The notes under the pieces: model-generated
Told to the model about the DNA's origin: nothing
Seen by the model: only the letters and a program-made list of their open reading frames with translations
Database searches by the model: none
Shown: positions 381-51,864 of the stretch, piece after piece
Position numbering within the stretch: the stretch's first letter is position 1
How the letters are laid out: each line of letters opens with the position of its first letter
Program-made: the position numbers and the translations under genes
Assembly (NCBI RefSeq): GCF_032854445.1
Contig: NC_088300.1
Location: 53,916,984 to 53,980,983, forward strand
From: Liolophura sinensis
Taxonomy: Eukaryota > Mollusca > Polyplacophora > Chitonida > Chitonidae
Length of the DNA stretch: 64,000 bases
Direction: 5' to 3'

Positions 381-3040
381 AGAAGAGCAGTGGTCTTCAC
401 TGATCTGCGCAAACGGTCATACAATCGACGTAGAGGGCTTATTGTCACCAAGAGTCCACAAACAGTGAATGCGGGGGTTTGCACAACTTCCCTGCATAAG
501 ACTGAAATTGAACCTGTACCTCGTATGTCCGAACAGTTGAGTGATAGACGCCTTCAACCACCAATGGCTTTTACAGTATTCAGTCTTTTATATTCATAAC
601 CACTTACTGAAGCCTGGCATTAAGCAAAATAATCACTTTTACTGAAAGGTTGATCGTTCAATGTTGAGATCATGATTATGGTGTCAGAATCTATAGCTCA
701 TTGATACGAAGCATGGGTCATTTGCATGCCTTCGTCCTGCAAAACAATGCATTTAACATTCAGTGCACGGATACGTGATGCGCGAGTTGAAGTTAAATAC
801 CGAGATATGTTGTCAATAACATTCGTAGCAAAACATGACAGGAGCGTAATGATCATCGGAGGTCCTCAGAATGGCAAACTTCGTCGTGTTATGGCGTTCG
901 ATACCGCTTTGTGACAAAAGCTTCAAAATTACGCAGGTTTTAGTTCTATTAGTGAAATGGCAAAATAGTGAGGAAAATGGCTATCAGAAGCGATACAAGC
1001 GTCGTTATATCGTCGGTCTGGGTAGAAACGGTAATCTAAACCTTTTACATAAGGTGTTTAGGTAAAATCGGAGACTCTCGCCATTCAGATAATGACCATA
1101 ACTCGTCAGTGACACGCGAAACTCATCAGTGACATAAACCGTTAGGGTTTAGAGAAGCCACTCAGCCCATTAACTAGTCAGTTACATTTAATTTGCAGAA
1201 AAATTACCCGGTGAAATAATATACGATAAGACTAAAATCAGACTTTTATAGGCTGATTCTGATTAAGTTCTTAATATAATCATTTTGGTTAGACCAATGT
1301 TGTAAGGCAGAGAAGAAACCAACAACCGAGGAGTAAAACTGGCGCTTATCGAACAGACAGTACATTACGATACAGGCACATACAAACATAACATATGTAG
1401 ATCAAATCAAGCTATCTACACGATGGGCGCAACCATATGGTATGTATGGACCTAGGACGAAAGATGGTCAAGTGACATGATCATCTCGGATCTTTCCGAC
1501 TGTTCTGGGCGATATTAAGGCCATGCGTGAGAGATCCTTGAGGTCGAATGACATTGTTTGATTTCTTTACGTACTATCCACGTACTATTACATATGTGGT
1601 ATAATGAACGCATTAGGCTATTACTGCATGTTGAAGAGTGGCAAGTCGTGATTTGTACAATAGGCACACAATGTTAGCTATACATCAGCTGTCAACATGT
1701 AACCAACTCAACTCTCATTTATACAATGACCCTGATTACAACGTAACATTGTATACTTCGGATTAAAAGTCCAAGGGAACAAATATATAGCCATGATAAT
1801 CTTCTCTTTACCACAGGAGATTCGCCATCAAACAAATCATAATGTTCCTCTCTTGAACGTGCAATACAAAATGCCATAATGTACAACATACAGCGACAGT
1901 CCAGTTATATATATATAGATCTGAGAAGACAATGATGACCTTTAGTAGAAGTTCCAAATTCAACTTGTAACTTGTGACTTCTAACTAGATTAGGTAAAGT
2001 AATTCTACTTTGAAATTACAAGTTACAACTCATGATAACTCTTACTAGATATTACACATCTTGAATTTATTAAATAACTCACGCAAAAGTATGTTTCCAA
2101 TAAAAAAGAGCCACTGGGATTTGAATTCTCAAAGAGATGTCCATTCTCTGCAAAGACTTCAATTAATTCAATATACTATGGACGCATCGGTTCGAACGTA
2201 GACAGCAATACGAATTTTAACCTAACCAAAAAATGATAAAACTGAAGACGAACATTAACCAAAACGAAACTTTGACAACACACAGAAATTCATAAGGGGG
2301 AAGTTCAGTAAGAATATTTTTCTTTCTTAATGTAATGTGCGTTATTTCAATAAAAATAATATCGCTGTTTTTGGAGGTTATTACTAAATAAACATCTTTT
2401 CTGTATGGTCAAAATACCTCTGACACGCAAATTTACAGCATTGTACTAAGAGTTTGAAACTGAAACTTTTTAATGGTACACAGCCGATTCTTCGCCTTAC
2501 CATACCAGGTCTTTTCAGCTGACCAAGTTGTTTCCTGAAGAGCTAAAACTGTTCATAACAATCGCCATTAGCGTGATTGAATGTACGGCATATTAACCGG
2601 GAGAACAGGATTCACGGCATCTGTAGAAGGGGCACAAAACAATTGCTCACGTCGAAAAACAAGAAAACTTGAAAGCCAGGAATATATTGAGAAACGATTA
2701 TGTCAAATTGATAAAATGACTGAGTGACGATGACTGAATGAATAGACTAATAGCGACCTGAGTGACGACCTGCTCTGTAAGCTTGGTTTGGCAGCCGCGT
2801 ATTGGCCGACTGGATTAGCTGCAAGTCATGGATTAACGCCGAGCCACTTATGATTTAAGCGTTTCTGGAGTGATGCTTGTCCCAGGTGTATTGCTTTATA
2901 AGTGCCAGAAAAATTATGCTAGGTTAGATGGACCTGACATACCATTCAATTCAACAGCAAGAGATGACATCATGCGTCAGACATACATTGTACCTGCCTT
3001 ATTAAAACCGATCTCCACAAATACATGTTTTATCAAATGC
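381..3040. other. Non-coding downstream block, copy 1 (left part)
   Basis: No gene is recognisable. The stretch aligns almost base for base with 45821-48530; several consecutive 60-base lines are identical. Two differences stand out. Copy 2 has 95 bp at 46996-47090 in place of 5 bp here at 1571-1575. The TA at 3022-3023 is the empty site of the Tc1-like transposon found in copy 2. Similarity of the small open frames between copies reflects the recent duplication and is not evidence of coding. Confidence 0.8.
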
Positions 3041-3044
3041 CTTA

Positions 3045-3500
3045 AGGTAGAGGAAGGTGTAAGGGAGAAAGGCGTAGTACAAGGGAAATTGTTACAACCA
3101 CAATCCAGACTGTCAACAGAAAAAGTGTAGTACAAGGCGAACTGTTAGAACCACAATCCAGGCTGTCAACCGATCAAAACGAAGCACGAGGCGAATTGTT
3201 TGAACCATAATTTAGGATGTCAACAGAAAGAGCGTAATACAAGGCGATACTGTTAGAACCACAATTCAGGATGTCAACAGAAAGGGCGTAATACAAGGCG
3301 ATATTGTTAGAACCACAATCCAGGATGTCAACGGAACAAAGCTTAGTACATGTACAAAGTGAATCGTTAGAACCAAAGTTCAATGCAGCCTGTCAAGGGA
3401 ATAAAACGAAGTAAAAGGCGAAGTAATCCAGGCTGTCAACAGAAATAAGCGTAGTACCGGGCGAGTTGTTAGAGCCACATTCAGGCTGCCCAACCAACAA
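3045..3500. repeat. About 50-bp minisatellite, copy 1
   Basis: Tandem units of roughly 48-52 bp with the pattern 'gtcaacagaaagagcg', 'taatacaaggcgatattg', 'ttagaaccacaatccag'. Roughly eight units; the right-hand ones are degenerate. Copy 2 (50055-50600) has a different number and order of units, so the array has changed length since duplication. Open frames across it are periodic repeat translations. Confidence 0.88.
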
Positions 3501-6370
3501 AGTGTGGTACAAGGAGAATTTTCTTCCACGGCTTGCTCGTGCAGGTTTAGTCAGTTTTAAATTAGTACATAAATAAATAGATTTTTGCCTACCTAGATCG
3601 AACGTTTGGTCTATTAAATCTCTCTTAGTATTAGTTTGCAAATGACAGGAAAGGAAATACGTTACAAACCAGGCTTCCAATTCAGCCAGCCTCACCTATA
3701 AAAGCAATGCACATGGAACATATCCCCTCCAGAGTTGTCGTTCCTGCATCGAGTGCATCCATACATGAGCCAACCTGTGAATGTCTTAATGTCGAAATCC
3801 GTGGAAAGCTACGGGACAAGCCTTTTTGTCTTTGTGTCCATCGATCACATTTGTGACAGTTTGATTACGTTACTGACGGATATAATGTTATCAACAAGCT
3901 ATACGAATACAGCTAAATGAGCGGAATTATATTACGATTTGGATATTTGTCGGGCACATTTAATTTTGACATACTGCTGAGCATTATCTATCAGTTCTAC
4001 CCTAGTTATTGGTGTCGGTTTCCCCGACAACCCAGCTGTAGTTTTCGTCTGTCGAATCTATTGTCAGCTGCCTACATAATACAAAAGTAGGCCTTAGGTA
4101 CGTTACAAATTCAATGAAACTGTACAGTACGTATTTAATTTTTGATATAATGCTGAGCATATTGATCACTACTTTGTCCTGGTTATAGCGCTGGGTTCCC
4201 AATGTATTTCTTTTATTAGAGGTTAACGCAGTATTAGGGATTGTCTTCAGGTGGAGGGAATTGGATTGATCGGAATAAACCCCCGACCTTTGGACAGTAA
4301 TTTTCACACCTGACGTACATGTGTTTGTTATATTTTTTCATGACATGTGCATCGCCCACGATCCACTTTAATGTCCCGCTTTTTTTCGAGAGCGTGATAG
4401 CGAATGTGTGACTGACATAGAAAAGAGCAATGCCATATGCTGCCTTAATAGAAACACTGCCTTTATGAGTAATTTTCACTTCCAAGGCGAAGAAAACGAA
4501 AACGTAATTCGACACACGAGAAGAGTTCAACATCTTACTCCCTGTCGGAAGAACTCCCAACCCTACACTCCCTACCCTCTTACTCTCTTGAAAACGACAA
4601 GGACGCTGAACTTACGATGATGAGACAAGGACTGATGTCAGAAAACTTAAAAATTCTGTTTCAGCCTTTGTTTGTTTTAACACTTCACACAAATGCATTC
4701 TCTTTATCTTAAGAAGATGACATCATGTACAACACGATTACAGGATTCCAAGGGATCCCTGAGGCAATTTTATTGACGAATGTCTCACAGGTTGCAAAGG
4801 TCAAGCTAGTCTAATGGTGGCAGTGATGAAAAGCGAGAGAGGCACATGCTCTGTAAGGAGTATTTCTTCCATGCATGTTGAAAACCATGTCTTACTCGAC
4901 TTCATAAACCAAAATACACAGCCATACTCCTTACAGCCCAGGCGTTGATTTCTATATTTCGCTTTACAACACTGCCACCAATAACCAATTTTGCACAGAA
5001 ATCTTGAACAACGCCAAGGTCACTAGGATCACGGTGATGACGCAGAAAGTGACGTCCGATAACACAATTAATCCGTCTGAACCTCTGTCTCTAGCAATTA
5101 TTTATACTCATACATTCTCTTTATCTAAAGTGTGTTATCAGCAAGTTATCTAACGAACACCTAAAATAATCTTATTGATGAATGCTGATTAAACAGTTCC
5201 GCGGTAGGACACAAGTGATGAGGCTAAGTCGAAACAAGCCTATATCCCTCCCACAGGCTCCAAATGTCAAGCTCGTCTGTTGCAAGCAATATTGTCTGGT
5301 TGCAGTGATGCAAAGCGAAAGGCAGAGATCGACTCATGCGCTATAAGGAGTATGATGCGTAGCGTGCATTGACGCTGACGTCATTATCCAATCGTTGTAG
5401 TTCCAAATCACGATTATTTTGTTTGAGGTTATCTAAGATTTTTATGATATTAAAGCTACAAGCATAGTGGGTATTATTCGACCAGTGACAACAGTGTGAT
5501 AGTTGGCAAATGCTCACACGTAGCCGGTGAAATCTAGTCTTCTGTCCGTTTTCCTCAGTTTTGGTTTATTCTAACAGCTCTTGTAAATGGTTTTAAATGC
5601 AGCACTTTACATACCCTCTAGCATAAGCAAAATTAGGTTTAAAAATGCAGTGACGTTGGTTGCAATTTATTAGATATCATTGGTCCAGGATTATTCACAA
5701 TGCAGTGTCGCAGTCATAGTCATATTTCAAATAAACGCTGGAAATAATGGCACACGTACGGCATAGAGAAAGAGAAGTCGTGCTGAATAAAGAAGTGCGG
5801 CTTAAGCCTTTATTAGAGCGTATGAATGTAGAACAAAAGTATAACCGGGCCACGTAACAAGGAATGGTTCTGACAATCTGCATGTAGTCAAAATCAACGA
5901 CAAATGACATGAAGATATGACCATTCTGAAGTGTTACAGTGAGCTGTGTGACAGAGTTGTATGTGCAAATAGTAACACATATTAAACGTCTGATATTATT
6001 TCAAGCAAACAATACACGCAGTCATAAGTACAGCATTATAAGTGCGTGGCCCAAAGACCCAAAGGAAAACTGCATTACGGCTTCATAAAATACAAAGGTA
6101 AACCATTATCCAATAAAGCATACCTACTGTTACTTGTCCATCCAAATACCTTGCCATATAAACAGGAGTCAATAACAATGAACATGTTAAGTCATTATCA
6201 CAAACATATTAATAGAACAACAAATTAAAAAACACATCTGAAATTAAGACCACCCCTCATCGTATCCCAATGAAAGAATAAAAATTCTCTTCGGGATAAA
6301 AGCACTCAAAAACAATCATGTAAATTAAGCACACGAAGAGAAACAACACAGACAATTCCGACAAATCTTT

Positions 6371-8818: not shown

Positions 8819-9112
8819 TCAATTGCAAAGGATTGTTAACACGTGATCAAGGATCTTCCCACAAAGACCCTTGCTTATCTCAGCCTGAGTCCACGTGTAC
8901 ACATCGGATGGTGTCTGCTGGCCGTGCAGCATGTCTGGATACCTTGTTCTCGTGTATCCCTTATATCCCAGCGTCGTTTCCAGTTCCTGGGCAAGTTGGG
9001 ACAATGTGGAGTCGTTAAGGCCGTCTGCAATTTTCTCCAACTCATGGGCTCGGATAGCGTTATGGTTGGCATTAGTCTTATACAATACAGCTTTAATGGC
9101 TTTTTCTGCGAC
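8819..9112 (-). CDS. SACS-like: Gene A exon 7 (HEPN domain, C-terminus)
   Basis: 97 codons plus stop. The acceptor is 'tatttttacag|GTC', phase 0. With exon 6 it reads '[15 protein letters not shown]', the core helix pair of the HEPN fold, then 'YTRTRYPD', 'PSDVYTW' and a final helix. In sacsin the HEPN domain dimerises and binds nucleotides, and no ribonuclease activity is established for it. Gene B has the same exon with nine amino-acid differences by hand count. Confidence 0.93.
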   Translation of the reverse strand, partial: VAEKAIKAVLYKTNANHNAIRAHELEKIADGLNDSTLSQLAQELETTLGYKGYTRTRYPDMLHGQQTPSDVYTWTQAEISKGLCGKILDHVLTILCN

Positions 9113-12100
9113 CTGTAAAAATATGTCATAACATGATGAAATTCATTAACATTTATCCGTTACATCAAAGATTTTACGTCTTAAGAAAGATTACAACTAT
9201 AAGAAACCATTTCTTTTCAACAATGCATTTTAAACATCGGATTCTACGAAGGTCTTTTCTGAAAATATTGTGATCAGTGGCGTGACGTGTGACAATGCTA
9301 GATCGCTACAATTACTCCCAGATTCAATAGATAACCGTAGAATCCTATATGTTTTTACTCGGTTTGAAACATTCTGAAAAATAAATCGTTTTCTGGACAG
9401 TGTTGTAATGGTCCTCCATCTGACATATACTTCAAGTTATTGTTTGTTTGCCTTTAAAAGAAAAGACAACACCAGAACAAATGTATACATTTATCGATAA
9501 AGTATACCAGAGGAAGTTAAAAAAGTACAACTTTATATTTTTGTGATGTTGCACAACCGAGATATTGCAGTTAAAAGAGCTGAATCACGCAAATTGCGAC
9601 AATCGAAAGCGCTGCCGTGTTATCAGATTTATTCGGAAATTCCACCAGACTCGAATTATTTCTATAACCTAAGCACGCGTCTGATTCCGCTAAAATCCTT
9701 CGAACCTTGTTTTGTCTCAAAACCATAGGTGCGCGTGGTACGCATCACGCAACATCATGTTTCCGGTTGATCTATAATGACGCATCCCATGTCTGCTTAA
9801 GAATTCCTAATCAGAAGCTGATTTGTAAAGTAACCCAGCAAGTAAACAAATAATGTCTACGGTCTGTTTCCATTCCTCCCACTAAATAATTCAGGTTATG
9901 TTATTTGATGTCTATTCTTTTAAGATTTTTGTGACATAATCTAAGCCATCTTCTTCCCCTGGAATTGAGAGAATACTCTACAGTAATTCAAATAAACAAA
10001 AGTACTGCCTTGTTGAAATATCAAGCATTTGACTAATAAGGATACCTGTTCAACTCCTTGCCAGCACTCTCCAACTCTTGATGTTTTGTAATTTACGTCA
10101 CAATATCACCCTCATGTTGCGCTTTACAAGTATGCAAAACTAGAGATCAGCGATTGAGCATCACCATCGTGTTGTTGTGCTCTATAAATATCCACAACCC
10201 GAGACCACTGATTAAACATCATCCTCATTTTGTTGTGCTTTACAAGTATGTAAAACCAGAGATCAATGAATAAACATCACCCTCATTTTGTTGTGCTTTA
10301 CAAGTATGCAAAATCCTAGATCAATGATTAAACATCACCCTCATGTCGTTGTGCTTTACAAGTATGTAAAACCAGAGACCAATGATTAAACATCAGCCTC
10401 ATGTTGTGCTTTACAAGTATGTAAAACCAGAGATCAATGAATAAACATCACCCTCATGTTGTGCTTTACAAGTATGTAAAACCAGAGATCAATGATTAAA
10501 CATCACCCCCATGTCGTTGTGCTTTACAAGTATGCAAAATTCTAGACCAATGATTAAACATCACCTTCATGTTGTGCTTTACAAGTATGTAAAACCAGAG
10601 ATCAATGAATAAACATCACCCCTATGTCGTTGTGCTTTACAAGTATGTAAAACCTGAGATCAGTGAATAAACATCACACTCATGTTGTTGTGCTTTACAA
10701 GTACACAGATCCCGAGATCATTCCAGGCAGTACTTTCTGAGTGAACATTTAACTTAAGACGGATACCAACACACAAAAGGCAAAGTCGTAAATTTTGTAA
10801 TTTACAGTAAATAATGCGCAGATAATGCATCAACGAACAATGCCTCAATTTAAATCATTGTGCTTCGACAAAACCTAAGATCTACATTTACACGGTGTAC
10901 AATTCAACATGCCGTCCATAGTCTAGTTAATGCTTTGCCCAGTTAGGGACGCCCAAAATCTTGGACGAAAATCTGATAAAGGTTACTTACCTGCTGACAT
11001 TTAAAACAAATCCAAGAATACGATGGTTTCGGGCCTTCCTCGTCGTTCCCGATGGCTTCGAAGTCAGCCTGTGCCTGACGGATCCAGCGGCGACCTTCTG
11101 ACGGCTGGGGGTTGGGGAAGTTAAATGAGGTGTGACCGTAATACCCTTGGTAGCGTCCGCCATCTGTCGTATCCCTGCTATTGAACGCTCTGAAATGCTG
11201 TCCATACTGGCTTCCTCTCCTGTTTGCTTTAGTGAAGAAATTTCCGTACGATCCTCCTGCGTAGAATCTTCCTCTCCTTGTAGTGTCACTAGTGTCATTT
11301 TCCTCTTCAAACGCAGAAAAGTCGCCATTTTCGAACCTCTTTACCAGTGCCAGTATATACTGAGCCACTTTAGTACAAAACTTTTCCCGTCCCGGATTTT
11401 TATCGGGATGCCACTTGAGAAGCAGTCTCTTTAAAACTTTCTTCTTTGTAAATTCATCTTTGTGCCATGCCTCTTTCAACAATTTGAAAATTTCCCTTTT
11501 CAACTCTTGTAAAGATTTGCTCTCTGTGGCGTCAGGTGTATGGGTGTTTGTTGCGTGTCCTGAGAAGATCTCTATTTCCCCTGTGGTAGATATCTGTTTC
11601 CTGTGGAATGCGTACAAGTCAGTGGCAGGAACAGTGATAATCTCGCCTATGTCAATCTTGTACTCTGTTTGCCAGTCTGAAGCGTCAGCCGCTGAACACA
11701 CTTCCTTGACAATGGCATATATGTATATTGCATCCCCATCTTCTGATGACAGCATTGGATCATACACTTCATACCCCACGTACTGCCCAGGTTCAAAAAA
11801 TGTGAAACTTTGGTCCAGCAAAAAATGAAATTTAACAGGGACGTAACTTCCAGGGATTGGAAGGTCAGGCTTTCCATGAAGTGGTTCGTTCATGCGGAAC
11901 TCTTTAATTCCTTGCTGGTTTAAATGCTCACGGACAGACTCGTCCTTGTAACCTACAAAAAGGACCTTTGGAATAAGTACGACTGCTTGTGATGGTAATT
12001 TGATGTGGTAATTGCAAAGGTATTTGCAGATCTGTGTACAACATTCATATTCATCATCGAGTAGTTTTTCGACAAAAAAGATGTGCATTTCAGAGGTGTT

Positions 12101-15100
12101 GTCTCCTTTGACTTCTTCACAGTGTTGCAAATGAGAAAAGTCTTCACTGTTTGAGATAATACTGCCTTGGTACATCAGACAAGTGCTAATTCCCGAACAG
12201 CAGAAGATTCTGATTGATGACAGAAAGCTCTGTACTTCCTCAATTTCCACAGTGCAGTCGTGGCGTCCTTCCTCAAACCTATAGTGTTTGATCAAACGTA
12301 TGATTCCATGTAGAACCTCAGGCGCGGACACCACATCTTGCAGCTTCAGACATTTTTCTGTCTGCTGACACTCAGACCTGCATGACTCTGTCAACTGTGC
12401 CTTCACCAATCTTGACAGAAGGCGGGGCCTGTGGCTGTCGGGAAGTTTGGCCCACAAGTCCATCTTATCAACATTTTCTTCTGGGTTTAGCAAGAAAACA
12501 AAATCGAGGTCTCCAGTAGCCCGTTTCTCCAAATATGAATTGTCAGAAACAACAATATCACATGACTTCTGAATGACACAGGCTTCGCCTTTTTTTCCCG
12601 GAAGATACAGTTTGCCTATTTGAACTTGTCCTTCAGACTTGCACAGCTTCTTGTACATTCCTTTCACTGCTTTCAATGCCGCCTTCATTTCGTTGGGTTC
12701 AAGGTCGTTATCCTGACAAGTTTCTCTTATCCGAAGAAGAACGTTGTTACTGACACCAACAGAGACCAATAGTTCGCAAAAGGGGCCCAACTCTTTAGGA
12801 AGCGTAAATAAATATGGAGTAATCTCTTTCACTGATTTCAGCTCCACCACCACTTGGTCTGGTTTAGCAAAGCATCCGTGATCCTTGATTATCACACAGG
12901 GTAAGTTATGAAGTATTTTCTTCAGGTCTTCGCTTAACTTCTTACTCTGAAGAAATGTGTATATGCCAGAGCAAATTTTCAACAGTGTGTCCAAGGTTTT
13001 GTGTTGATGCTTCTGCAGTTGTTTGTCATTGTTCATGCTCTGTACAATGTTACGCAAATTCTGAACAACTGCTTCGGAAGTTGGTTCTTTTTTGACACCC
13101 AATATATTCAAAATATGTTCTTTTCTCTTTTTGTCTTTTGGCACACAATACTCCCTGAAAACATCACAGCTTGACCACACCAGTTCTTGGTGTTCCGGCA
13201 ATGCTGAACCGTTAAAACAAGTCATTGATGGGGAAGATCTGTAACACGAAGCAATGGCTTGAAGCTCGTCACTCGCAGACTTGGAAACCAGGAACTTTAT
13301 ATTTTTAACTTTTTCAAGAAGAGCGGAATTTTCTTTTTGTTCACTAAACAAATTCTTTATTAAGCACTGGGATTTTTCAAGAATTGTCTTTTCTTCTCGC
13401 TCATTGCACCCACCTTCCTCAAGCTGTTTAGCCAGTTTCACAAACATGTCTGCCGACACCTTGTTGGTGAGTCCAGCTATAGTTAGCATGTGATACCATT
13501 CTTTTTCACAAAACGGTTCCGGGACAAACTGGTGCCTTTTCAGCATTGCCTTAAACAAATCATGTCTGTGATCATAAAAGAATGATGCTCTCTCTAATTT
13601 CTGGTTATAGGGAATGAATGACAGTTCTTGAAGGGCTGTCTGGAGAAAGGATAAGGTGCCGTCTCGGGCTTGTTGAATGAGGGCATCTCGGACGAATTCT
13701 AGATGAACAACCCTGGCTTTCTCGTCGAGGATGTCAAACGCTTTAAAAATGTACTTGCAATAGAATTCAATTTCAGAACAGTTGTTAAGTTCCAAGTAGC
13801 AGTACAGATTGGTGAGCACGCTGATTTCTTTCAAAAGCACCAACGATCCCTTCTGACACCATTTCTCCATACCAACGGAAGGTACAGTTTTCGGGAGGAC
13901 TATTGCTTTAACACCATTAATCTCAACCCCTTCGTCGTATACCGTCAAAAAAAACGGCATCTGTGCTAAAAGGACTTTGTGGTTTGGGATGTTCTTCACT
14001 TGTTCTAAGTGATCTGAAAAATACTGCAAAATTCCCTTGCAAACCTCAGGTATCAAAAGACTGATGACACTGCCTTTCATTGACGAAGACAATGTTTTTG
14101 TTATGCAGGTCAGAATGTCTCCTGCATCGGATAAATCAACTACCAATTCATTCGGAAGCGTAACAGTCTTGAGTAGCCACTCCATCTCATTATCAAACTT
14201 CTTAAAGATATAAAACCCCGCTTTACGCAAATGGTTAGAAATCATCCAAAAACTGTCCCTCATTACTTGATCAGCAAAACTTACAGGAACCAGATAGAGG
14301 CTTTCCTGTCCCTTTTGTGTCCTCGTGGCAGGTAACAAAGACCACGATAGAATGTCATTCAATGAACGGAGCATTGATTTCTGAGTTGCCTTCCCTTTTA
14401 AAGGCAGGGCTTTTTCGGTCAGATAATTCCAAACTGACTGCAACCACAACTCAGCAGGCGCTCTCCTATCACCCCAATGCACCGGTTGATTCCTCCCAAA
14501 CACAGACTCCTCCAACTCAAAAGGCAACAGCTTACTAAAATCTGTAATCTTAAAAGGTTTGACTTGCTGGACATTTTCCAGCTTTTCATCGTACAATCCC
14601 AGGATACTTATGGCAGATTGGTGAAGAAAGCTACCGGCGGAATGTGGAACTATCAGTGAGTATTGTGATACAAAAACTTTCTCAGACTCTCTGAAAACCC
14701 GCAAAGTTTCATCACAGGTCAACAGTAGCGGTAACCCCTCCAGAGACTCATTCAGCTTGTCACACTTTTTGCAGTATGACAATAGTTCAAAGAAACTGTC
14801 TTTTGTTTTTAAATTTGTCTGTCCTAGAGGACATGGAAGGTTGCCTATGACGCAAAGAGTGTGCTCATCTGAGTATGTTCCCAAAAAAATCACAACTGAT
14901 TCTGGTGAGACCACTTTTACGCCAATTTTGGCTTCACAAAAGTTTTTGTAAATCTGCAGTGGAGTGCTGACAAGATTGAAATCCAGGGCCAGTAAGAGAG
15001 ACGCCATTGTTGAAGACCGTCGTGACGGTTTCCTAGCTCTTTCCACTATGCCATATCCATAGAAACCCGACACAGTTTCGTCGTACTGTGTTTTCAAAGT

Positions 15101-18100
15101 ATTGAAGAATGCTTCAAGTTCATGTTGTCCAGTTGGCGGCAGCCATTTCTTCACGACCTCCTTCCCAGATTGGGTTTTGTGTGTCACACAGAGCACACGA
15201 CTGGATGTGGAATTAAGATGTTTGTAAACTGCTAAGCACAAATCCTTCCAGTAGAGGTCGGTAGCCTTCTTATTTAGAGGAAAAAATCCATGGTACTGTT
15301 CAATGGAACCTTGTACTGAATGAGTTTCTTGAAACAGTACTTCTTTTAAATCCACAATGCCTGAGGCATACAAATGTGCTAACAATTGCTCACCTAAAGC
15401 TTTGTTCCATTTTGTTCTAACATCTCCATGTGGCGAATTGTACAGGTGTCTTCGTTGTTCATAGTCCAATGCAAAGTCCCCATCAATGTGCACAGGCAGT
15501 CCTGTTAGCACTGGCAGAGGAAGGCCACAGAAAGCCTTACATTCTCTCTGTCTTTTCTGTATTAGCGGAAATGCCACGCCACCAATGGGCAAATGATTTA
15601 GTGTTTTTTGACTGATGGCTACCTTTAACTCATCTGGAACTTCTTTGGGATTTTCAAACCCAATCCTTTGCTTCACAAACCACCGTTCTGACGTCTGCTC
15701 TTCCTGTATTTCTACGAAGTATTTCACCTCTGTTGTGGTCACATTTTCAACAGACAATCCTGATTGTAATTCAGTGATAACATTTTGGCGTTGTAAATGT
15801 ATTTGTTTCTTCTGCTTTAAACTGTCTTCGTCCAAGCTGACTTTGATTTCATATACCGTTTTCAGAGTCCCGTCCTGCGTTACGTCAATAATCTTGATAG
15901 AGTGTACATTTTTGGTAAATAACAAGGCTTCTTTACCTTCTTTCTTGAATTCCTTAAAAAGAGCATTCAATTTATTCACCGATATTGGTTCATTTTTGAT
16001 CTCCGATTTTTCGGCCATACTCACGTTTCTTAAAGGAAATCTGAACAATGTACCAACGGTATTCTGATTAAGAATACTTTCCGGATAACAAGCAAACGAG
16101 TCCGGAAATCGCTTGCGAATCAGAGGTAGATTTTGCCATTTCATGCCACTCAACATTGGAGACATGTTTGGTATGTATTTGCGATTTGGATCAAATGCAC
16201 ACAATATTTCCTCTGTCTGCCTTTTGATCAGAAAAGACGGAACATCCGTCAAATGGTAAACCACGTTGAAGCCAATTCCATATTTCCCCGTTTTCAAAGG
16301 GTCATCTCTCTTGCTTCCCTTCCCAAGACTTTGAATTCCTTCCAAATCTTCGTCAGTAAAGGCTGCATCATTGTACACACACAAAGCAGGGCCTTGCAGT
16401 TCCTTCCATTCTTCAGAAAAAATCTTTTTACTCTCGTGAGATCTCCAGTCTTTAATGAACTGTATCTCTGTAGCACCAGCATCATCCGCATTCTGCAGAA
16501 GTTCTTTCAAAATTGTTGAATCACAAGGATAACCCTGTAATATTCCTTTTAGTCTGTTTGTGAGATCTTCCTTTTGACCAAACGGAATTTGAATGCCCTC
16601 AGCATTCTGAGATAAACACCAGTGCTGCTTGGTTTTTACTCCCAGCAGTTCGGCCGTTTCTTTGGAGACACTGGCGTGAACGTATCTCATCACTCCACTG
16701 GAATCCTTTATCCAAGAACAATCATCAAAGCACAGCATTTCCGACAAACAGAGTTTACCCTCTTTGTCTGGTAGCATTATTTCATTGAGGTCCTCTTTTA
16801 ACAGGGTGCTATGTTCAGATTCTACTGTCTCAACCAGAGCTGTCAGCATCCTAATCAAAAGGCGTATAGTGCTCAAGTCAAGTGTGGCGTGGTTGTATTT
16901 CTCGTAGAACTTCTGAAGACTTTGCACATAATCAAAACGACTAAAGTTTTTCTTTACACCAAGTAAATGCATTGTGTTTGGGTACAGTCTGCTATACCTT
17001 TCACTCAACTTAGACAAATACGGAGAGCATTTATAGTTGAACTCGATGGCTAGAGACTGAGGAGACACGTGTTCCTTCTCATGAAAAATACTGTTTAATT
17101 CTGTTATTGCCCTCATCCACCCCGGGATTTCTGTAGATTCTGTGCAACACTTCTCCAAAAAGACATACACCTGTTCATAAATCTTTTCTAAATTACTTAG
17201 GTCATCAGTGGAGAGCTCAGATGTTTCAACTTTCGTTAAAGCTTGCATATGCTTAACCAAGTCAACCACAGAAACTTCACTTAATATTCCAAGCTTTTTC
17301 AGAACAGCATTTGAACCAAGTCCTAGCCCGTAACAATTCAATACTAATCTCTGAGAACCTACAAGGTGATTCTCTTGCGCAAGGTACAGATTTCTTGGAC
17401 ACTCAAACGTTGGTCCCCCGTCTGCTTTCCACTGAAGTGATGAAGGCCAATGTGCAGGACGGTGCAGTACAGGAAGAAATCGTAGTGTGTTCAGCTTATC
17501 CTTGTCATCTGCAGTGAGATCCAGAGAATTTGTTCTGTTCATTTTCACAAGAACACGAATCAGGGCGTTGAACATACTGAGAGCTTTATCTGGCTGATGC
17601 TGACTTAGTCGTTCAATTGTACTTGCCCTACCTAGAACTTCTGCCGGAGGCAAGATGTCCTTTAACATTCCTAATTCTTTCAGGACATCCAGTATCAGGG
17701 GGTTACAGAACGTGATCTTATTTCCAACAGGAAATCGATTTTCCGAATCATCATAGAGGCAAGCTATTTCTCCCTCTGGATGTATCAGATCACAGGGCAT
17801 ACACAGTGATCCACAGTAGTCCACCGGAATACAACGTGTTTCTTTCAAAGCTCTCAATAGGATTGGGTCTCTACTCTTCAGAGCATGAAGCACCAACACA
17901 TCTCTCTGTTCGGGTTCTATTTCTTCTATTTTTGGCAGGAAAAGTTTCGTGTAAAATTGATGAATAGAGAATGTGTTTTTATCAACAAGCTGGCTTCGTC
18001 CAAACCTAGAAAAGCATTTTTGGATATCTTCGGGGAGGTCGACGGCAATCTTTTCTGTTTTCTTTAAAAGTTTATTAAAAACTTCAAAAGCCACTTGTCC

Positions 18101-21100
18101 GGTCTTCCCAGTATCAAATCGAAATTTGCTTTCGAGGAATACAGCATTTTGCATGTTGGTGAACCTATCTCTGCCTGGAAGTATTTCTTGCTGATCAGAT
18201 GACAGAGAGCCATAGAATCCGCGAAGAAGAGGCTCCAGGTAAGCGTCGCAGTTTGTTTCTGTTGGCCATAGCTCGAACATCTGCTGGTGCCCTTTGGCTG
18301 CTAGCAGTTGTAGGGCGTTGATATAGGATTTTGCCAACGAGTCTTCAAGGAGAATTTCATTCCACTCGCTCCCAAGGTTTTTCTTTTCATCGACATTTTT
18401 TTCAGACAGACGACGTCGATCAGATGTCACAGAAAAACTTCCGTTGATCAGAACAGGAAGTTTTGTGGGTATTGGCAATGGCAGATAGCAATAGACCAGC
18501 CCGTGTTTTAAAAATCCTGTGGGGCTCTTTTCAATAGGTATGGCTTCGTAAGACTGATTCCCTGTCGTTTGAACTGGGATGACCACACTCGCTTCAGGAT
18601 GAAGGGCTTCCATTTCTCGGTTTACTGACAGAAAATGAGAAACTCTTTGACCCCCCTCTGAATTACCCTTAAGCCAAGTAACTTCAGTTTTTCTTTCACA
18701 TGCCGGTTTCAAATTAAGCATCTCACATTTTTCATTGTCGTTAATCATTTGGACCATTATCATATGGTCATTATTCGACTTAGAAACTTCAAACAACGGA
18801 GTTTGTGTTGATGCATCAGTTTCCGTACTTGACAGATGGAAAAACTTGATGTTCGTCACATTTCGGGTGAACATGAGTAAATTCCCGGCACATTCTAAAG
18901 ACATTTGCAACAGTTTGATCATTTCTCTCTGATTGTAGTGTAGATTGCTGATCTGACTTCGGTGGGCCTGGTCAGACGTTCTCAGTGGAAAACGAAACAG
19001 CGTTCCCTGGAAATTCAAAGCGTCCTCTGTGTCAAAGTCACAACCGAATACACCGTTATATGGTTGAAACTGTTCTCTCAGCCGATTAACCATTCTTCTG
19101 TTTTTCCTAATGTTCATTTTTAATCCAGGTTTGCCAAGAAAAGTCTCATGAGGATCAAAGATGACAAAAAGATCCCTGCTAACAAAACTTGGCACATCTG
19201 TTAAGTTGTACACTGCGTTGAATCCTAATCCAAATTTACCAATCTTGGCAGCTTTGTACAGCTTAGTAGCCCCGCTTATTTTGGTGATGTTCTGAAAGTC
19301 TTCATCCGTGAACACTGCGTTGTTGTAGGTCCAAAGCGCTGGGCCTTGGCACTCCGCCATGTTTTTATGTATCAGTCGATTTCGGAAATTTGCATTCTGT
19401 CGTTCATCATAAAGAAAACACACTCTAGTTGCCCCGGCGTCATCAGCATTCTGGACAAGCTCTTTTATGACTGCAACCCCATCCGTGTAATGCTGTATTA
19501 GGTTTCTCAGGCGTCTCGTCAGGGGTTCTAACTGGCCGTAATTCATGTCTAATTCCTGAGCATCAAGCAATTTGTCCATGAGGGGTGACACTCCCAGGGA
19601 ATAAGCAAGTTCACGTGGGACATGTCTGTGTACAATATGCAAGTCTCTATCATCAGCTGAAATGTCCTCCACACTGATCCACTCGGAAGAGTCATAATAA
19701 ACACACTGATTGGCTGGCATCATTTTGAAACATTCGTCTTTACCAGCAACTTCCACCGGAATTAAAATCCTGGCTGCTTCCAGCAGATTTCCTTCCTCAA
19801 CATAGGCTGACAAGTGGTGTAACATCCTGAGAACAATCTGGATATCACGATGTACCTTTGCTTTTTGTCTTGCTTTTGGCTTTGAGTACTTTTTTTCTAT
19901 CATATGAAGAACGTCTAACATCATCTCTTGATCCTGATTTCTATGACACCCAAAAAACAAGAAGAAATCCTTCAAATCACGCATATCTACCGGCAGACAC
20001 ACCATGTATGGTGCCAGATCCAGGTCTTCATTTGCTTGCTCAACATAGATCTTTTGAGAAGAACTGAATTCTTTACCATTCCAAATCCACTTACATGTAC
20101 GATCAATTTTTTGGTCATTCATTTCTGACCAAATAGCTTGATAACTGAATTTCTGAAGTTCTCTGTAAATTTTTTTCACAGCCGTTACGAAGAAATCCAC
20201 ATTATCTGGATCGAAATTCCTCATAGTGATCTTCATTTGTTCTAGTAGCTTGGATAATGAAGGAGGGCGACTCAGTTCTAACATCTGCACCAAATTTGAC
20301 TTTTGAGTCTGTGTCAGATCATCTGGCAACACTGTAATTGGCATAACTGAGCCAATCAAATTTTGATATCTTTTGTCCATTGCCTCTGAAGGTTTAGCTA
20401 GAAATCCAGTTGAAGAAAACCAAGGCATTTTTTGTGGAAAATGACTTGGTCTGTCTCTCTTAATTGGCAAGATTGCCACTGTTTTAAGTTTATCCACAAT
20501 TCTTGATGACAGATCAGTCCGATCCGCTATGGCAGATATTACTGCACGACATTTTCGGTGCAGCACGTCGTGCTCTTTTTCTGTCTGCATCTTTTCCAGC
20601 TTTACAGCACAAGAAAGTAGATCCTGTTCTGTTGGCCTACTCTTTAAGCCTAGACTCCGAAGTATGTGTGTATAGTTTTCCCATTCTTTGCCTGGAAACA
20701 CATCTTCTCCCACAAACAGATCCCTCAGTTTAGGTATTGTCGGATCAAACAACTCTGATAGCTTTCGCAGCGTTTTTTCATCATCTGTACATGGTATAAA
20801 GGAAATATTTCCAACCAAATCCCAAACTTCTTTGTTCAAACCTGATGGATTGGAAAGGATATGTTCCATGAAATGAATCACCTGGGAACGCCTGTACGTG
20901 TTGGGCTCTAGCCGCATCTTTTGAAGTACTAGCAACACCAGATCTCCGCGGTTAAGCTGCTGAACGCCAAGCTTTGCACCCAGGCTTTTTTCTGCCAATG
21001 ATCCATACTTTATCAGTTTACAAGGAAAGGTGATCGGGATGACCTCTTCAGGAGCAGACTTTTGCAGTTCTTGAACAGAAACATGGCTGATATTTTCATT

Positions 21101-24100
21101 AGGGCCAAGAGCTTCAAATAATCGAAGAGAAGTAAGGAGTCTGTGTTCTTGAGTTGTAAACACTTTGTCACAACTGGCAATGAATGTCACAAATTCTGAT
21201 CTCTGCTCTTTTGTTAGTGACAGGTCCATTGTGTCATGGGTGTAGTCTCTCGCAGTAGACAAAGCTTGCAGAACTGAGCAGGCTGTCGGCTCAAGGATAA
21301 ACACACCAATAACATTTGGGTGCTTCAACACTTCTGGTACAACTTCTGTCAACACCTGGACGCCCATTTTCTTAACAACAGATTCCACAACATCTGACAA
21401 AACTGTCTTGCCATATCTCTTTAGGACATTCACTGGAGGACACTGAAGTTTTTCAAGAGTAACTCCAAATGCTGTTGAGATGGGGAGAAGGGTCACTCCT
21501 TGAAACTCGTGAAGGTTAGATGGGAATTCTGAGCACAATGCCTTCCAGACATTGGTTATCCACAGCTTGATACCTTCCCTATTTTGCCCACCAAAGATCT
21601 TAGTCACCTGTTCTATAAGCTTTCGGAAGTCATCCTTCCTGACAGGTCTCAGTTGTGTCTTCCCTGAATTAACCAACAGAAAATAAGTCAAAATGGTTGC
21701 ATAAGGTAACAGTGACCTAAATTCTAGTTTACTACCTGCAAATGCAAATGTGCCAGAAAATAGCAACAAGAATGGAAGATGAGCTAGAATCAGTGACTGT
21801 GGGTATTGATGCCCTGCTGTTGACTATTATACAACATATGTATACTCAAGTATAATGTAGAGAAACTTCAAGTATAATGTACAAACACATGAATGTCTGA
21901 TAGATCAGAAGATATGCCCCAACCACGAGCGCCCCGCACGCAGAATATACAGTAACCTATGGATTTCATGTACTCAATGGAACATGTGATTCTCCTGTAG
22001 TTGGTTTGGAAGCTATGAGCAAATTAAAAAAAACATGACCCTGTACATATAGAACTGCTGTATGGCCATTCTCTTTTCAACCTGGTTTCCTCGCTTGATT
22101 TGAATGAGAACCATACAATGCCTCTGCACACAAAATTTTTTAAACAGAATTGAGCAATATTATTTAGTGGTTATTGCACATAGACCAAAGACAATCAAAG
22201 AAAACCCTCAATCTGCAAAAACTTATGAATAAACCAGGCTAGTTTGTTAACTTGTATATTCTAAGTATCACCTGTGAGTTTCATGTAAAATGTTATGAAA
22301 ACTGAACAATATTTTGAGCAGTTTTTGCATGCCAGCAACAAACAATCAGAATCAAAGAAACTGTTACATGTGCAAAACACTGCCACCGAAAGCATCTAAT
22401 CTCCCTCTCACACAACCTCTCCTTACTTAGTGCAGGCAAGTTAATAATCTAAACAGATACAATAGGGCTTCCAGCCAAAGGTTTGAACCCCTGAACATTC
22501 CCACAAACATCATACCTGACTGAATTAAGATCTTCAGTTTCTTTTCCAGGCCATCCGGAAATTGATGTATTGGAGATTCAGTCAAAAACTGATTTTCTAA
22601 ACCTGGGAACAAACATCTGTCAAAGGTTTTCGTGGCACTGAACTTGGTCTCCTCTCTCTGTTAAAATAAAAGTTTTATTTCTGAGCGGCCAAATCCTGGC
22701 AGTGCCAAGACTTTTTTCGTTTCAATTTGATAAACACAAAACTATACTTTGCAACATTAAAATCACAGGCAATTTGTATGGAAGCACTTGTGTGATAAAT
22801 GTATATAAAGATGTTGCTATCCTGATTATTGCAAATAGAGGCCAGATGAAAGTGATAGGAAGCAAACTAAGAATGAAAATAAATATTTATTTAATTCTGT
22901 ATTATTAGCTTATATACAATATTATATACTATATACTCATTTCTATACAATGAAATGTAACAAATGTCAGGTCACAAATTATAGATAGTGCTGCACAAAA
23001 CATTTTCAATTTCAATTTCATTCGAAATTTGTCAACAGCTAGCATGCAACTTATCAAATGGGCTTTGTGGCTTTGTGACTTGGACTTTTCAAGCGTACAT
23101 GAAGCAAACAGCATTTAATTAGATATCTGTGGGAGTTTTTTACTTTTTTGAACATCCAAATGGCACAAAAGTCATTATTTGCTGAAGTTGGTTAGAGACA
23201 ATATTTCCAAAAAGGATTTTCACATGATTCGGAAAATCCATTAACACTTGTACGGACTAGAATGTTACTTAGTTTGGCTTCATATAGATTGTTTCATGAA
23301 CCATTTGTGATGTGCATTGATTGCACTAATGGTACATCCAGTTTGAATGGAGAAATGTAACGATCACAGTGGACATGAAAATGCATGTGGGTTTAGGTGG
23401 GGCTGTTATTTTGAGGCAAAATAGGTTTGATAGGAATAAGTGGCGAAACAACACCAACATCAGGGGTTCATAGAAGTCGTCGGGAAGAGCCAGTATTCGG
23501 TCTGTCATTTCAATAAAAAAAACTCAATAACTGGTTATAATTGATCAATTTGAGGTCGTGTTTTGATAGAAATATTCAAAAGTTCAATTTGAACATATTC
23601 AAAGTTCCGTGAAGGAAACTGCGTTACGAGTTATCTCTCTTTCACAGATATTTTCATGACCCTCTCCGTTGATTAGATTTAAGAAGTACAATTTTTGGAA
23701 GCTGAAGGGCGTATGAAATCAAACATGAAACATGGTAAATTTCTTTGGTCTCTGCCAAATAGGCTTTCACCGATAATTTGACATACTTCGGCTTCCGGTC
23801 GTTCTATTTATGACTTAGCGTTGCGCGAATGACTGCATGTGAACGCACGCGGTCTGACTGGTTTCCTTCTCCTGACACCAGTATCAACTAGCCATAGGAG
23901 CCAGCTTGAGTCCCTATATAGGCAGTGATAATTACTTCAGTCAGTGAAGTATAGCAACGTACTAAAATATTCAATTTTTGTATCTCAAATGGTATGTCGG
24001 AACAAAAAACCCCTCAATTTCAGTGGAAAAAACTATGCACCCCTGAATACAGGTAGGCCACATAGGTGGCCTCTTTCGCTATCACCGGAGAGTAGTGCCT

Positions 24101-27100
24101 GATAGCACAGAGGCTTTCCCCTGCCTGTTGGTTTCAGTAAATGAGCATCAATCACCGTTCACAGCACTGCTTATTGCTGTTGTATACTGTTGTGTGAGTG
24201 AATAAATCTGATCCGAATGTACATGCATTTGGTTTGAAACAAGGAAATACACACTTATTATGGCCGATCAATGATTGGCAGAAGTATGCAAGCTGCAATG
24301 CCATTACTGTACATAGAAAAGTTTTCAGAAACTGACTTCAGAAACAGCAAAAGTAAGGGTGACTAGAGAGCCTATAACGAGTATCAACCTTGTTGACAGG
24401 AAGATGAGTATTTCCCTCCCTCAACGAAGTGTCATCAAAATCTGCACAGTAATTTGGGGGGAGACATATGGACAAAATTGTGTCTACACGCAGACGCATG
24501 GGCAGGCAGGGTGATTCCATTTTACCCACCTCCCTAATGTGACGTGGGAAATGAACGAAACACACACACAACTTGTGGTGGCCAGGTCTTTATGTGTATA
24601 ATTTTCTTTACTGGTCCCATGAATACCCCCCCCCCCCCACCCCACCCCCCACCCCCCTCCCTGTTGACCAGGAACACACCAGGAGATACACTGCGTATCC
24701 AGACCAGAATACCGGTACATCACACAGTCAAGACATCTGTGTCTACGAGATTTCGCTCAGAACTCGGCAGTTAAATAATATAAAGCACTCCTTTCAGGAT
24801 AGCTGCAGACGGAGAGGCGAGAAGTGACGTCATACAAACTGCATCATAGCATGACATATCCCAGGCGTGTCATAACAAACTATATGTGGTATAATAATAT
24901 AAGTTATCCGCATGTTCAGAAAGATATATGGGGATTTAAACCCTAGGTGTTTTATGGAATGCGGGGTCACAAAGAAAAATGTCATTCTGCGCAGTAATTT
25001 AGATACACTGGGTATAATATTAGTATCACAAAGAAAAATGACGCCAGTCTGCTCAGTAATTCAACTATGCAAGGATAAAATCTCATATACCCCTAGTGGG
25101 CATGGCCTGAATTTCTGACAAGTGTATGTCAACATTTTAACCCACCTGATCAGCCAGTGGCAATCAAGAATGTCCTTTTTTAGGCTTAAACCTCTTACAA
25201 AACTAACAAATGACTTAAAGCCATTCATTCTTACCTGGTCTTGGAATGTTGTGAAAGTACCATCAGACAGTGGAAGAAGTCTTATTCCCCACAGGTCATC
25301 AAAGTCTTTGTTATCTACGAGATCCTCCATGATAAAGTTCAGAAGGTGCAGCTTTTGGAAATCACTCTCTTGTTCATATGCTAAGGTTTTCTTCAGCACA
25401 TTTCTAACAAATCTTGGTGTGACCTGCTTCATTTTATTCCCAACAAAATGACGGACTGTGTCAAATAGACCTTCTGGCACACAAGTCACTGTTATTCCCA
25501 GATGCTTTAGAATTCCTAAAACTTTCTCTGGAACATCTGACTTGTCCTTACAAAACACAGCTTCTCCGAACGTCACCCATTTGCCCCCACCTTCTTCTGA
25601 GAAGAAACATGGCTTGGTAAGGATGTGTTCGTAGAAGCCCTGAACCACACACACCCACATGTTGGACGCAGACCCTACTGAGGGGAATGCCTTGTAAACA
25701 GCCTGCACATAGTCCTGTGGATTTTTTTGTTTCTTGGAGGTCTCTATCAACTCGTCAATCAGCAAAGAGTAAACCTTTGGGACAGCTTCTGTCAACAGAC
25801 CACGGTTCCAGCGACAAGATTTATCCCTTTGGCTGTCCCAGCCTTGGTGCTCCTCATCTGCTGTTGGCCATTTTAGATGGTGTCGGTTGGAGCTGAGAGC
25901 AAAATACCCATTGACATGCACAGGGAGCCCAGTCAGACTGTTATGCTGAAGTGGGAGGGGTAGAAAACAGTACACATGACCTTGTAGAGCAGTTTCCATT
26001 AATTTCATGTCCAGAATGGTTTTTCTTGTCAACAATGGGACATCTACGACAGAAACTCCCACAAATGGTGGATAGGACAGGGCAGGATCGTCTGACAGAG
26101 CCCTCAGGGAAGAAGACATTTCATCTCTCCCCAACTTTATTGACTTCACAGTCCAGTTCAAACGAAAATTCAGTCCAGAAGAATGATCTTTGACTTCACA
26201 ATTCACTGAACTTGTCCATACTGAGGTTGACTCTGCTGCCAAAGCCTGGTTAAGGATCTCTTTTTGATCTTTTCGTTGTTTTGCACTTTCATCAGTAAGA
26301 CAAACACTGAAGGACAATTTGGGGGTCGCCTTCCCCTGTTGAGGACTCCAAATTTCAACACACTCCAGAGACTTTAGAAAGACAAGAACTATCATCATCT
26401 CAGTTCTGAAACATTTTAGGAGATCACACACTCTTCCATCATCATAAACCACGGGTGACAAGTCAGAGCAAGACTGTCGTAATGGGAATCGGAACACAGT
26501 TCCATCAAAGCCATCTGTTGTAGCTCTATCCAAACTGGACATATCCAGCACTTTCCCAAACACCTGTCTCATGCACTGCACTGTTTTGCTCTTCAGGTTA
26601 GAAAGCCGATAGGTCGCACACACTCTGTGCTCTAGCTTGCTTGGATCAAGAAGAAGCAGTGTGTCCCCGCTGGTGATGCTTGGGAAGTCTTCAAGGATAA
26701 AAAACAACAAAAAATAAGAATCACAACTTTCACTTTGTGTGCCTGACGTTTGCCTTTAAACTTGATAACCTCCCTGAATATTTAGCATGTTTAGGGGAAG
26801 AGTTACATCTGCAATATTATACAAGACACTGTCTTATCAAGTCTCTATCAAACTTTAATGAAAAATTCTTATTTTAATCTGTTCTCACGTACATTATGCT
26901 TAACACCAGAGTGAATCATCCTTCCAAACCAACAGAAAGAAACACTTATTTGCACATTTTTCAAATAACCACTGGAGGTATGGTTATCTCTTTTTGTAAA
27001 AAGATAATTGCAAATTTTGCTACTTCAAATGGGAAAAGGAACAAAGTCACCCAACATATGTTAATATAAAGTTAATGTCCTTATGCAAGCTATCTGAAAA

Positions 27101-30100
27101 AAAAAAATGATGCATATATAAATATATACTCAAGAATATTTCATTTTTACGCAAACAGTTATATTCATGGTTTGGGTGGGTGGGGATGGGGGAACCATGC
27201 AGGATGGGCGCATTGAAAGGCATTGCCATTCATAAGGGACATGTACCTGACAAACTCTGAGCTGTGAGAGCTGAAGAAATTGACATGGACAAATCTAGGC
27301 GTATACAGAAAGAGCAGGCCTTATCCTCATGGATAATTGTCTGGATGTATACTGTGTCCCTGGGTATACATGTAAATATATGCATGTGATTTCATATGCA
27401 GTCTCTTCTGCGATCGGTTTATTTTATTAGCAGGAGACTAGTCTGGAAACTACCGGGAATTATTCTTTTGCTTAATGGCAGCACAATGGCAGCACCAAAA
27501 TAATACAGTCGCTGGAGTGAAGAAATGATATTATTACTTCCATTGTCATTTCACTGATCTTTTGTCATAATGTGATCTTTTGTCATAATGTGACCTTTTG
27601 TCATAAAGGTAATTTGTCAGAAAAACCATGTGCATGTACCTGTTATGTGGAACACAGACTTAAATCCCAGTCCATAGCGGCCAACTTTCAATCGATCCAC
27701 CTCTTTGACACTTTTGCGCAACATCTTAATTCCCTTCCAATCTTCCTCCGTAAATCTGGCATTATTGCAGACATATATAGCTGGTCCCTGCAACAAAACC
27801 AAGTAAGTTGCAGATACTTGAACGCATGCATTTATGGGATGATGCTGTGCAACCCAAATAAGAAATGCACATCCTCACATGAAAACGTAATCATAACTGG
27901 GGGAGATGTGCTGACACGGACGCATTATCTACTCATTAAAGTCCCACATTGGAGGTAATCTTACTGCAGACAATCCTGAAAAATTATGAACATTCAATTC
28001 ACCTGCAATCTGTTACATTTTTATTTCTTTGACATTAGTTATTAAAAGGTTTTTATCCTTCTTCAATGAATGGAATGGTTTTCAACCTTCTTCTCAATGA
28101 ATAAAATAATGACAAAGTGCCCAAATTATTACCTGAAAATGAGGACAGGAACTTGTCTCGCGTTCTGCACCAAAACTGTCATAAATAATCCTGACTTGGG
28201 AAGCTCCAGCATCTTCTGCATTTTGTATCAACTCCTGAAAAAGTATATGCATTGTACGTAGTGGTTGTGGAAAGGCCACACTGTACCCGGTGTCCAATGG
28301 CAACGAAGGTATTAACAGGCTTGGTTTGTAAAATGGTGTGGTTGTCAGGGAACCTTGTGGGTTCAGGCACCTCAATATTAGAAGCACTCATCCAACCTTA
28401 AATGATGCCAGTGTTGGTTGCATGTGTAAACAGTGGTATAAATACTCCTTAGCATAAACTGTTTAACCCAATATATTTCTGACTGTTTCTCTCAGTTGTT
28501 AAAATGACAGTGTTAATACCACACTTTAATCTACATGACGCCAGCCTGATTACACTTACTAATGCATAGTTTAATAAGATGTTTGCTGACCTACTCATGT
28601 CCAACTTCTGATAGACACACAGGTTTATAATCCCACTAACTCATGGACAGCTTTATCACTCTGACTCATGCACAGTTTCATCACACTAACTCATGGAGAG
28701 CTTTATCACTCTGACTCATGCACAGTTTCATCACACTAACTCATGTAAAGTTTCATCCCACTAACTTATGGACAGCTTTATCGCTCTGACTGTGACACAG
28801 TTTCATCACACTAACTCATATAAAGTTTCATCACACTAACTCATGTATAGCTGCATCTTACTACTACTGTAACTCATGCACAACTGCATTGCACGACTTA
28901 CTCATGTACAGCTGCATCGCACGGCTAACGCAGGTACAACTGTATCACACTACACCTTGACCACATTATCAAACTCATGAACAGATTCATCAAGCATAGC
29001 TTCATCACACTAACTCATGTAAAGTTTCATCACACTATATCACGTACACCAGCATCACACTGCTAACTCATGTAAATCATCGCACTACTAACTAAATGTA
29101 CAGCTTCAACACACTACTAACTCATGTACAGCTGCATCGCATGACTAACTCATGTACAGCTGCATCACACTACTAACTCATGTGCAGCTGCATCGCACGA
29201 CTAACTCATGTACAGCTGCATCGCACGACTATGTACAGTTGCATCGCACTACTAACTCATGTACAGCTACATCACACTACTTACTCATGTACAGCTGCAT
29301 CGCATGACTAACTCATGTACAGCTGCATCGCATGACTAACTCATGTACAGCTGCATCACACTACTAACTCACGTGCAGCTGCATCGCACGACTAACTCAT
29401 GTACACCTGCATCGCACGACTATGTACAGTTGCATCACACTACTAACTCATGTACAGCTACATCACACTACTTACTCATGTACAGCTGCATCGCATGACT
29501 AACTCATGTACAGCTGCATCACACTACTAACTCATGTACAGCTGCATCGCACGACTAACTCATGTACACCTGCATCGCACGACTATGTACAGTTGCATCG
29601 CACTACTAACTCATGTACAGCTACATCACACTACTTACTCATGTACAGCTGCATCTCACTATTAAGTATTGTACAGCTGCATATCACTAACTCGTGCGCG
29701 GCTCTATCACACTATTAAATCATGTACAGGTGTACCTCACTAACTCATGTACAGCTGCATCACACTATTAAGTAATGTACAGCTTCATCACACTTACTAA
29801 CATACAGCTTCAACACACTAACTCATGTCCAGCTTCATCACACTAACTCATGCACAGCTTCATCACACTTACTCATGCACAGCTTCATCACACTAAGGGG
29901 CCTCCGTAGCTCAGTCGGTTAGCGCGCTAACCTAACTCACCTAAGTGAAATATTCTTGAGTGCGGCGTAAAACACCAATCAAATAAATAAATAAATCATC
30001 ACACTAAGTCATGTACAGATTACAGATTCATGAAACCAACTCTTACAGATTCTTCAAATTAACTTACGTAAACCTTCACCAAACTCACATACAGGTTCAT

Positions 30101-33060: not shown

Positions 33061-33289
33061 AATTGGGTCAGTCGGTAGGGAATTTAGTTTTATTTTTCTT
33101 CTGACTAACTATAAGAATAGGAATTTCAAAGAGAGAAATAAAAAAAATCCCAACAAAAAAAAATATTTTTACTGATGGTCACAAGTTCATGAGAAGGCCT
33201 AAAACACTTAATGTATCACCTCAAGTCGTGTTTATCCAAATAGGGAAACATTTAATTGTTTTTATTTTCGATGATGCTGGGTGAAAGCA

Positions 33290-51755: not shown

Positions 51756-51864
51756 TATGTCAAGAATGAATGATTGAATCAGTATGGATTAACGCCATTT
51801 ACCTCAACAAGTTGGTTATGTAGTTGCCTGGTGGCTGATGGTTGTCAGCGTAAAATAAAACACA

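Follow-up and report, generated by a model that had tools for sequence, protein, structure and literature searches.

The tandem duplication behind two neighbouring sacsin genes, A and B, of the chiton Liolophura sinensis forms a mosaic with three or more depths of divergence, and the abrupt identity step between the two genes is one edge of an island of divergence in this mosaic. We analysed a window of 64,000 nucleotides. Coordinates are window positions (1-64000), numbers above 64000 lie to the right of the window on the same scaffold, and for comparison with copy B the sequence was extended by 10 kb to the left of the window and 30 kb to its right. The probable origin of the mosaic, in our judgement, is an old tandem duplication of the sacsin gene that was mostly homogenised by gene conversion, with islands that escaped.

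The two units form a collinear self-BLAST chain with offsets of ~45.4-49.4 kb. Unit B lies at 45684-87703 (~42 kb), and a third, diverged sacsin gene, gene C, was found on scaffold C3. The main features of unit A are as follows.

254 to 41352, no strand: tandem duplication unit A, alignable extent ~41 kb, from the collinear self-BLAST chain and segment divergences
8828 to 9124, minus strand: HEPN exon of copy A, found by tblastn with the HEPN frame of gene C (46% identity to each copy)
10946 to 21823, minus strand: giant exon of sacsin copy A, open over 3626 aa (Pfam SACS PF25794, E 1.2e-154)
25064 to 26755, minus strand: upstream sacsin exon frame of copy A, 564 aa; of the 562 residues aligned with copy B, 528 are identical
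37001 to 41352, no strand: right outer flank of unit A, ~11% divergent from B (318/2877 aligned sites, blocks j-o)

In copy B, the HEPN exon is at 57981-58280, the giant exon at 60179-71035 (3619 aa open, partly beyond the window) and the upstream exon frame at 74259-75998. Within the giant exon of copy A, aa 762-1003 match sacsin SR1 structure sequences (chains 5v44-5v47, E ~1e-50), aa 3442-3502 match the J-domain 1iur (KIAA0730), and aa 3573-3616 match 3o10 (HEPN), which continues in the next exon. An N-terminal ubiquitin-like domain is a further feature of sacsin. The splice donor CAG|GTAAGT that closes the giant exon is kept in both copies, and judged by their sequences neither copy appears to be an obvious pseudogene. 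The intron before the HEPN exon holds in both copies a tandem array with a period of ~58 bp (10102-10720 and 59257-59939), and each unit has a large imperfect tandem repeat array on the upstream side of its sacsin exons (28635-30283 and 77845-79421).

The base counts given for the step in the initial annotation are exact: 13561-13637 and 62812-62888 differ at 2 of 77 sites, and 13638-13691 and 62889-62942 at 20 of 54. When identity was binned in 200 alignment columns, it dropped at 13637/62888 as proposed, from 95.0% in the bin at 13431 to 70.5-86.0% in the six bins of 13631-14830, but it recovered to 90.5% at 14831 and 97.0% at 15031. From 15031 to 28600, all aligned bins were at least 94% except four (16631-17430, 81.5-91.0%). 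To the left of the step, the lowest bins were those at 11858 (82.5%), 13031 (92.0%) and 12058 (93.0%). Since high identity returns 1.4 kb further on, the step is the edge of an island and not the border of a homogenised third of the gene. This high identity lasts for ~20 kb past the first island, except for the second island, the repeat array and an insertion, and a single BLAST alignment of 10115-29896 with 59328-79243 is 93.3% identical over 20 kb.

A hidden Markov model (HMM) was run on 33,864 aligned A-B sites. Sequence lacking a counterpart was kept out of the divergence counts, as were the repeat part 3021-3517 and two tandem arrays (~10102-10720 and 28600-30300). A single rate was rejected against two (log-likelihood -6418 and -5937, respectively). 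By BIC, three states (11864.0) were best, compared with 11916.7 for two and 11882.5 for four; the better fit of three states than of two indicates that the divergence depths are graded. Unless otherwise stated, island coordinates are those of the two-state path, with sub-blocks merged by hand.

13635 to 15034, minus strand: divergence island 1 of copy A, aa ~2264-2730 (HMM), whose low-coordinate edge, at the 3' side of the gene, is the reported step
62886 to 64000, minus strand: divergence island 1 of copy B (alignment, HMM), cut by the window edge and continuing to ~64270
16627 to 17574, minus strand: divergence island 2 of copy A, aa ~1417-1733 (HMM), 110/948 sites differ; its B counterpart, 65863-66810, lies outside the window
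11872 to 12132, minus strand: divergence island 3 of copy A, aa ~3231-3318 (HMM), 45/261 mismatches
61096 to 61356, minus strand: divergence island 3 of copy B (HMM)

After merging, island 1 has 262 differences at 1385 sites. Its sub-blocks of 679, 532 and 93 sites hold 134, 115 and 12 mismatches, respectively, and are split by two short low-mismatch runs. All three islands lie in the one giant exon with high identity on both sides of each. Together they span 5.7 kb, amid ~36 kb of otherwise 2-4% divergence, and their overall mismatch is 12-19%. At 18069-30700, which includes exon and introns, 209 of 10,887 sites differ. The core is also interrupted by shorter runs of high rate, 5-97 bases long. 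The clustering of mismatches is far beyond chance within the giant exon: in 2000 codon shuffles of its 3608 aligned codons, the highest value stayed below the observed maximum for all four window sizes used. With an 18-codon window the observed maximum was 23 against a highest shuffle of 18, and with a 467-codon window it was 258 against 130.

These results change the geometry proposed earlier, in which two older paralogs had their 3' thirds recently homogenised while the rest stayed old. Identity is high both left and right of the step, and the low stretch beside it is one of three islands, 1.4 kb in length. Moreover, the 1232 codons at 18100-21800, far towards the 5' end of the exon, give a dS of 0.032, lower than the 0.066 and 0.057 of exon parts on the side described as near-identical. 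The initial annotation had taken the end of the window for the end of the pattern. Its statement that the right-side proteins are about two-thirds identical holds inside the window but fails beyond 64000, where identity is at least 94% from ~15031/64267. Near identity of everything on the left is broadly correct (3-4% mismatch in alignment blocks b-d), except for island 3, two insertions of ~1.5 and 2 kb in B, and the left end of unit A (254-700), where 55 of 443 sites differ. Gene conversion between older tandem paralogs, the process it suggested, remains the best supported one on indirect evidence, although the geometry drawn for it was wrong.

Differences in depth between islands and core are clear at synonymous sites. 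Nei-Gojobori estimates between A and B gave dS of 0.358 (0.279-0.444), 0.181 (0.119-0.249) and 0.407 (0.210-0.701) for islands 1, 2 and 3, with dN of 0.178, 0.110 and 0.154 and dN/dS of 0.50, 0.61 and 0.38, respectively. The four core exon segments gave dS of 0.032, 0.077, 0.066 and 0.057 and dN/dS of 0.56, 0.34, 0.45 and 0.34; intervals of dN/dS are wide in islands and core alike. Fourfold sites differ at 36/145 in island 1, 12/104 in island 2 and 4/18 in island 3, and for island 1 the contrast with 35/961 in the four core segments summed is strong (Fisher p 1.4e-15). With high dS in the islands and similar dN/dS inside and outside, the islands differ from the core in depth and not in constraint. 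When selection keeping a divergence peak was sought by dN/dS, the values were 0.38-0.61 in islands and 0.34-0.56 outside with wide intervals, and thus gave no support for it; single sites or short blocks may still be selected. No named domain found in the exon overlaps an island, an observation of little weight because such domains cover only ~16% of the exon. Structure prediction of aa 2200-2799 (three sequences) gave a mean pLDDT of only 34.

Faster evolution or positive selection in segments of a uniformly aged duplicate could in principle produce such islands with no exchange at all. The islands are indeed somewhat less conserved against gene C, from which 56% of their residues differ compared with 48% elsewhere, and a 60-codon block of island 2 (aa 1501-1560) has a dN of 0.208, above its dS of 0.124. 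However, dS is raised where dN is, by a factor of roughly 5-13 in islands 1 and 3 and roughly 2-6 in island 2, and dN/dS stays similar. Gene C, which appears once in the assembly, has an open frame of 2598 aa and is 46-47% identical to A and B in the main match. For the 852 island residues, the ratio of the A-B protein distance to that from C is 0.33 (0.28-0.38), compared with 0.079 (0.062-0.097) for 1407 residues outside the islands. Relative to gene C, the islands are thus four times deeper than the remainder, and rate differences visible against C do not explain them. In addition, aa 2201-2300, 3101-3200 and 3501-3600 are just 41-43% identical to C yet 91-96% identical between A and B, and A-B identity is only weakly correlated with A-C identity over 23 windows (rho 0.37, p 0.085). 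For local rates to account for the islands, differences of the required size would need to be nearly absent from the long branch to C. We regard evolution without exchange as very unlikely.

An assembly artefact, either uncollapsed haplotypes placed in tandem or a switch between haplotypes or paralogs at 13637, might also mimic a step. The genome was first published as L. japonica (PMC11068029) and later corrected by its authors to L. sinensis (PMC12441733). In the available text of the former, heterozygosity is 1.24%, HiFi coverage is 14X with a mean read of 8,347 bp, and purge_dups was used (PMC11068029). Core divergence of ~2-4% is not far above this heterozygosity, and the coverage is low. 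But mismatch in the right outer flank (11%) and in the islands (12-19%) is far above it, the window and the 40 kb added around it contain zero N, duplicates had been purged by the assembly authors, and the third sacsin gene is present once. Moreover, islands and core alternate within 5.7 kb, which is shorter than the mean read and makes a haplotype join at the step unlikely. As a whole, we consider an artefact highly unlikely. Other observations on the assembly concern different sequences. Contig C99 carries seven COX1 copies ~15.5 kb apart, apparently a mitochondrial-genome concatemer left in the assembly, and contig C632 carries one more. The reading frame of the mitochondrial COX1 stays open if TGA encodes Trp, and a plant origin of the DNA, considered at first, was dropped on this ground. 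Searches of the mitochondrial stretch for Rfam families and tRNAs gave no matches. Scaffolds C6 and C3 lack the telomere motif in the terminal 1,500 bases of both ends.

According to our preferred reading, conversion would have acted on an old duplicate, and the depth of the outer flanks of the units, 11-12%, is what is expected if the middle of the unit was homogenised later. For the stretch 37817-39229 of the right flank, only A and B are full length among the matches listed, and the other 42 fall in an embedded ~200-bp repeat (best 40 of 5297 candidates scored). This dispersed repeat, at 38742-38936, is on many scaffolds among the best 40 of 5297 candidates scored. Likewise, the 3 kb between exons at 21900-24900 matches end to end only at A and B among the matches listed, and the others fall in a dispersed repeat (57 matches; best 40 of 794 candidates scored). 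Unit A also carries a clean ~2.2-kb insertion at 33192-35390, with B uninterrupted at 82502/82503 and no inner frame above 104 aa. Unit B has ~2 kb without A counterpart at 51308-53338, where A is uninterrupted at 4198/4201, and this insertion contains ~250 bases resembling 36757-37008.

Our reading fits least well with the depth of island 1, which exceeds that of the right outer flank (36/145 fourfold sites against 318/2877 sites, p 7e-6), because a simple old duplication with a homogenised middle should give both the same depth. The graded depths found by the HMM also count against it, as does the somewhat lower conservation of the islands against gene C. The flanks may have been partly converted, or their divergence may be biased low since only alignable parts were counted. 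Alternatively, the tandem duplication would be more recent, and one copy would then have received short segments from a more divergent source, either a lost third copy or an old allelic sacsin lineage. The greater depth of island 1, and of island 3 by point estimate, than of the flanks of its own unit would follow, and the sharp edge, with 20 mismatches among 50 sites at 13637-13686, would agree with it. However, several imports into one exon are needed, and the flanks at 11-12% still require later homogenisation of the 2-4% core. The islands of neither copy are conspicuous: private changes against C at 13638-14870 are similar in A and B (66 and 77 nucleotides), and GC and GC3, tried as a polarity test, differ little between the A and B islands. 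Moreover, no source was found in the assembly. When it was searched at the DNA level, island 1 of A and a 2-kb piece of B that includes most of this island each gave three matches, namely A, B and a weak match of short length in C. At the protein level, an 867-aa query gave only A, B and C, and the 12 matches of a SACS family search (11 over cut-off) all fall at these genes. The assembly could be incomplete and lack a donor. Such imports seem to us unlikely.

Another way to account for the mismatch between island and flank is that islands 1 and 3 may predate the duplication. In that case two ancient sequence types of particular sacsin segments, derived from an old, balanced lineage of alleles or from a third paralog since lost, would have been fixed one per copy and held apart by selection against conversion. 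This variant is unlikely in our estimate.

Under the explanation that we favour, one duplication would have made two tandem sacsin copies in units of 41-42 kb, earlier than most of their present similarity suggests. Repeated interlocus gene conversion would later have overwritten most of the unit (~0.7-36.5 kb) and brought it to 2-4% divergence. In the giant exon, at least three stretches would have been spared in recent times and would retain older divergence. The reported step would then be the gene-3' edge of the largest escaped island. Islands may persist where locally high mismatch blocks more conversion, perhaps aided by selection for copy-specific function. We infer conversion from one genome, which shows no such event directly.

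Sacsin is known mainly from a human ataxia. The chiton pair offers a large natural example of conversion against divergence, with ~36 kb mostly homogenised and three islands in one exon. Whole-gene sacsin trees, ages or dN/dS from L. sinensis could thus mislead. If the islands are older than the duplication, segments of sacsin would be under selection to differ, and if two ancient types exist, sacsin would be a gene with kept-apart variable segments, like recognition or defence genes. According to the available text of an oyster study, a sacsin-like gene lies in the highest-FST region for herpesvirus resistance (PMC9437489), which gives no more than a loose lead towards a role of sacsin in defence.

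Within the sacsin (SACS) family, chiton copy A shares SR1, the J-domain, HEPN and Pfam SACS, and differs in being one of a tandem pair with a third gene elsewhere. In this pair of tandem duplicates, stretches of low and of high synonymous divergence alternate with sharp borders between them. RHD/RHCE is reportedly a duplicate pair under a divergence peak with interlocus gene conversion. Human red and green opsins are described as having such a peak in exon 5 (PMC3924837). As in the available account of the opsins, divergence in chiton sacsin is confined to a stretch and the surroundings would be kept similar by conversion, but its dN/dS is not raised, it has three islands in one exon, and it comes from a single genome. 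In the copepod Tigriopus californicus, GOT1p1 and GOT1p2 are described as a mosaic of high and low divergence with low Ka/Ks in an intron-less sequenced stretch, ascribed to ongoing conversion (PMC3728101). Like them, the chiton copies carry islands of divergence in high-similarity duplicates, whereas the GOT1 case, as presented there, rests on four populations and conversion-detection software. In the titles and abstract openings of literature pairing sacsin with gene conversion, no conversion mosaic in sacsin is reported. The pattern is thus a known one in a new gene and animal, the sacsin of the chiton Liolophura sinensis.
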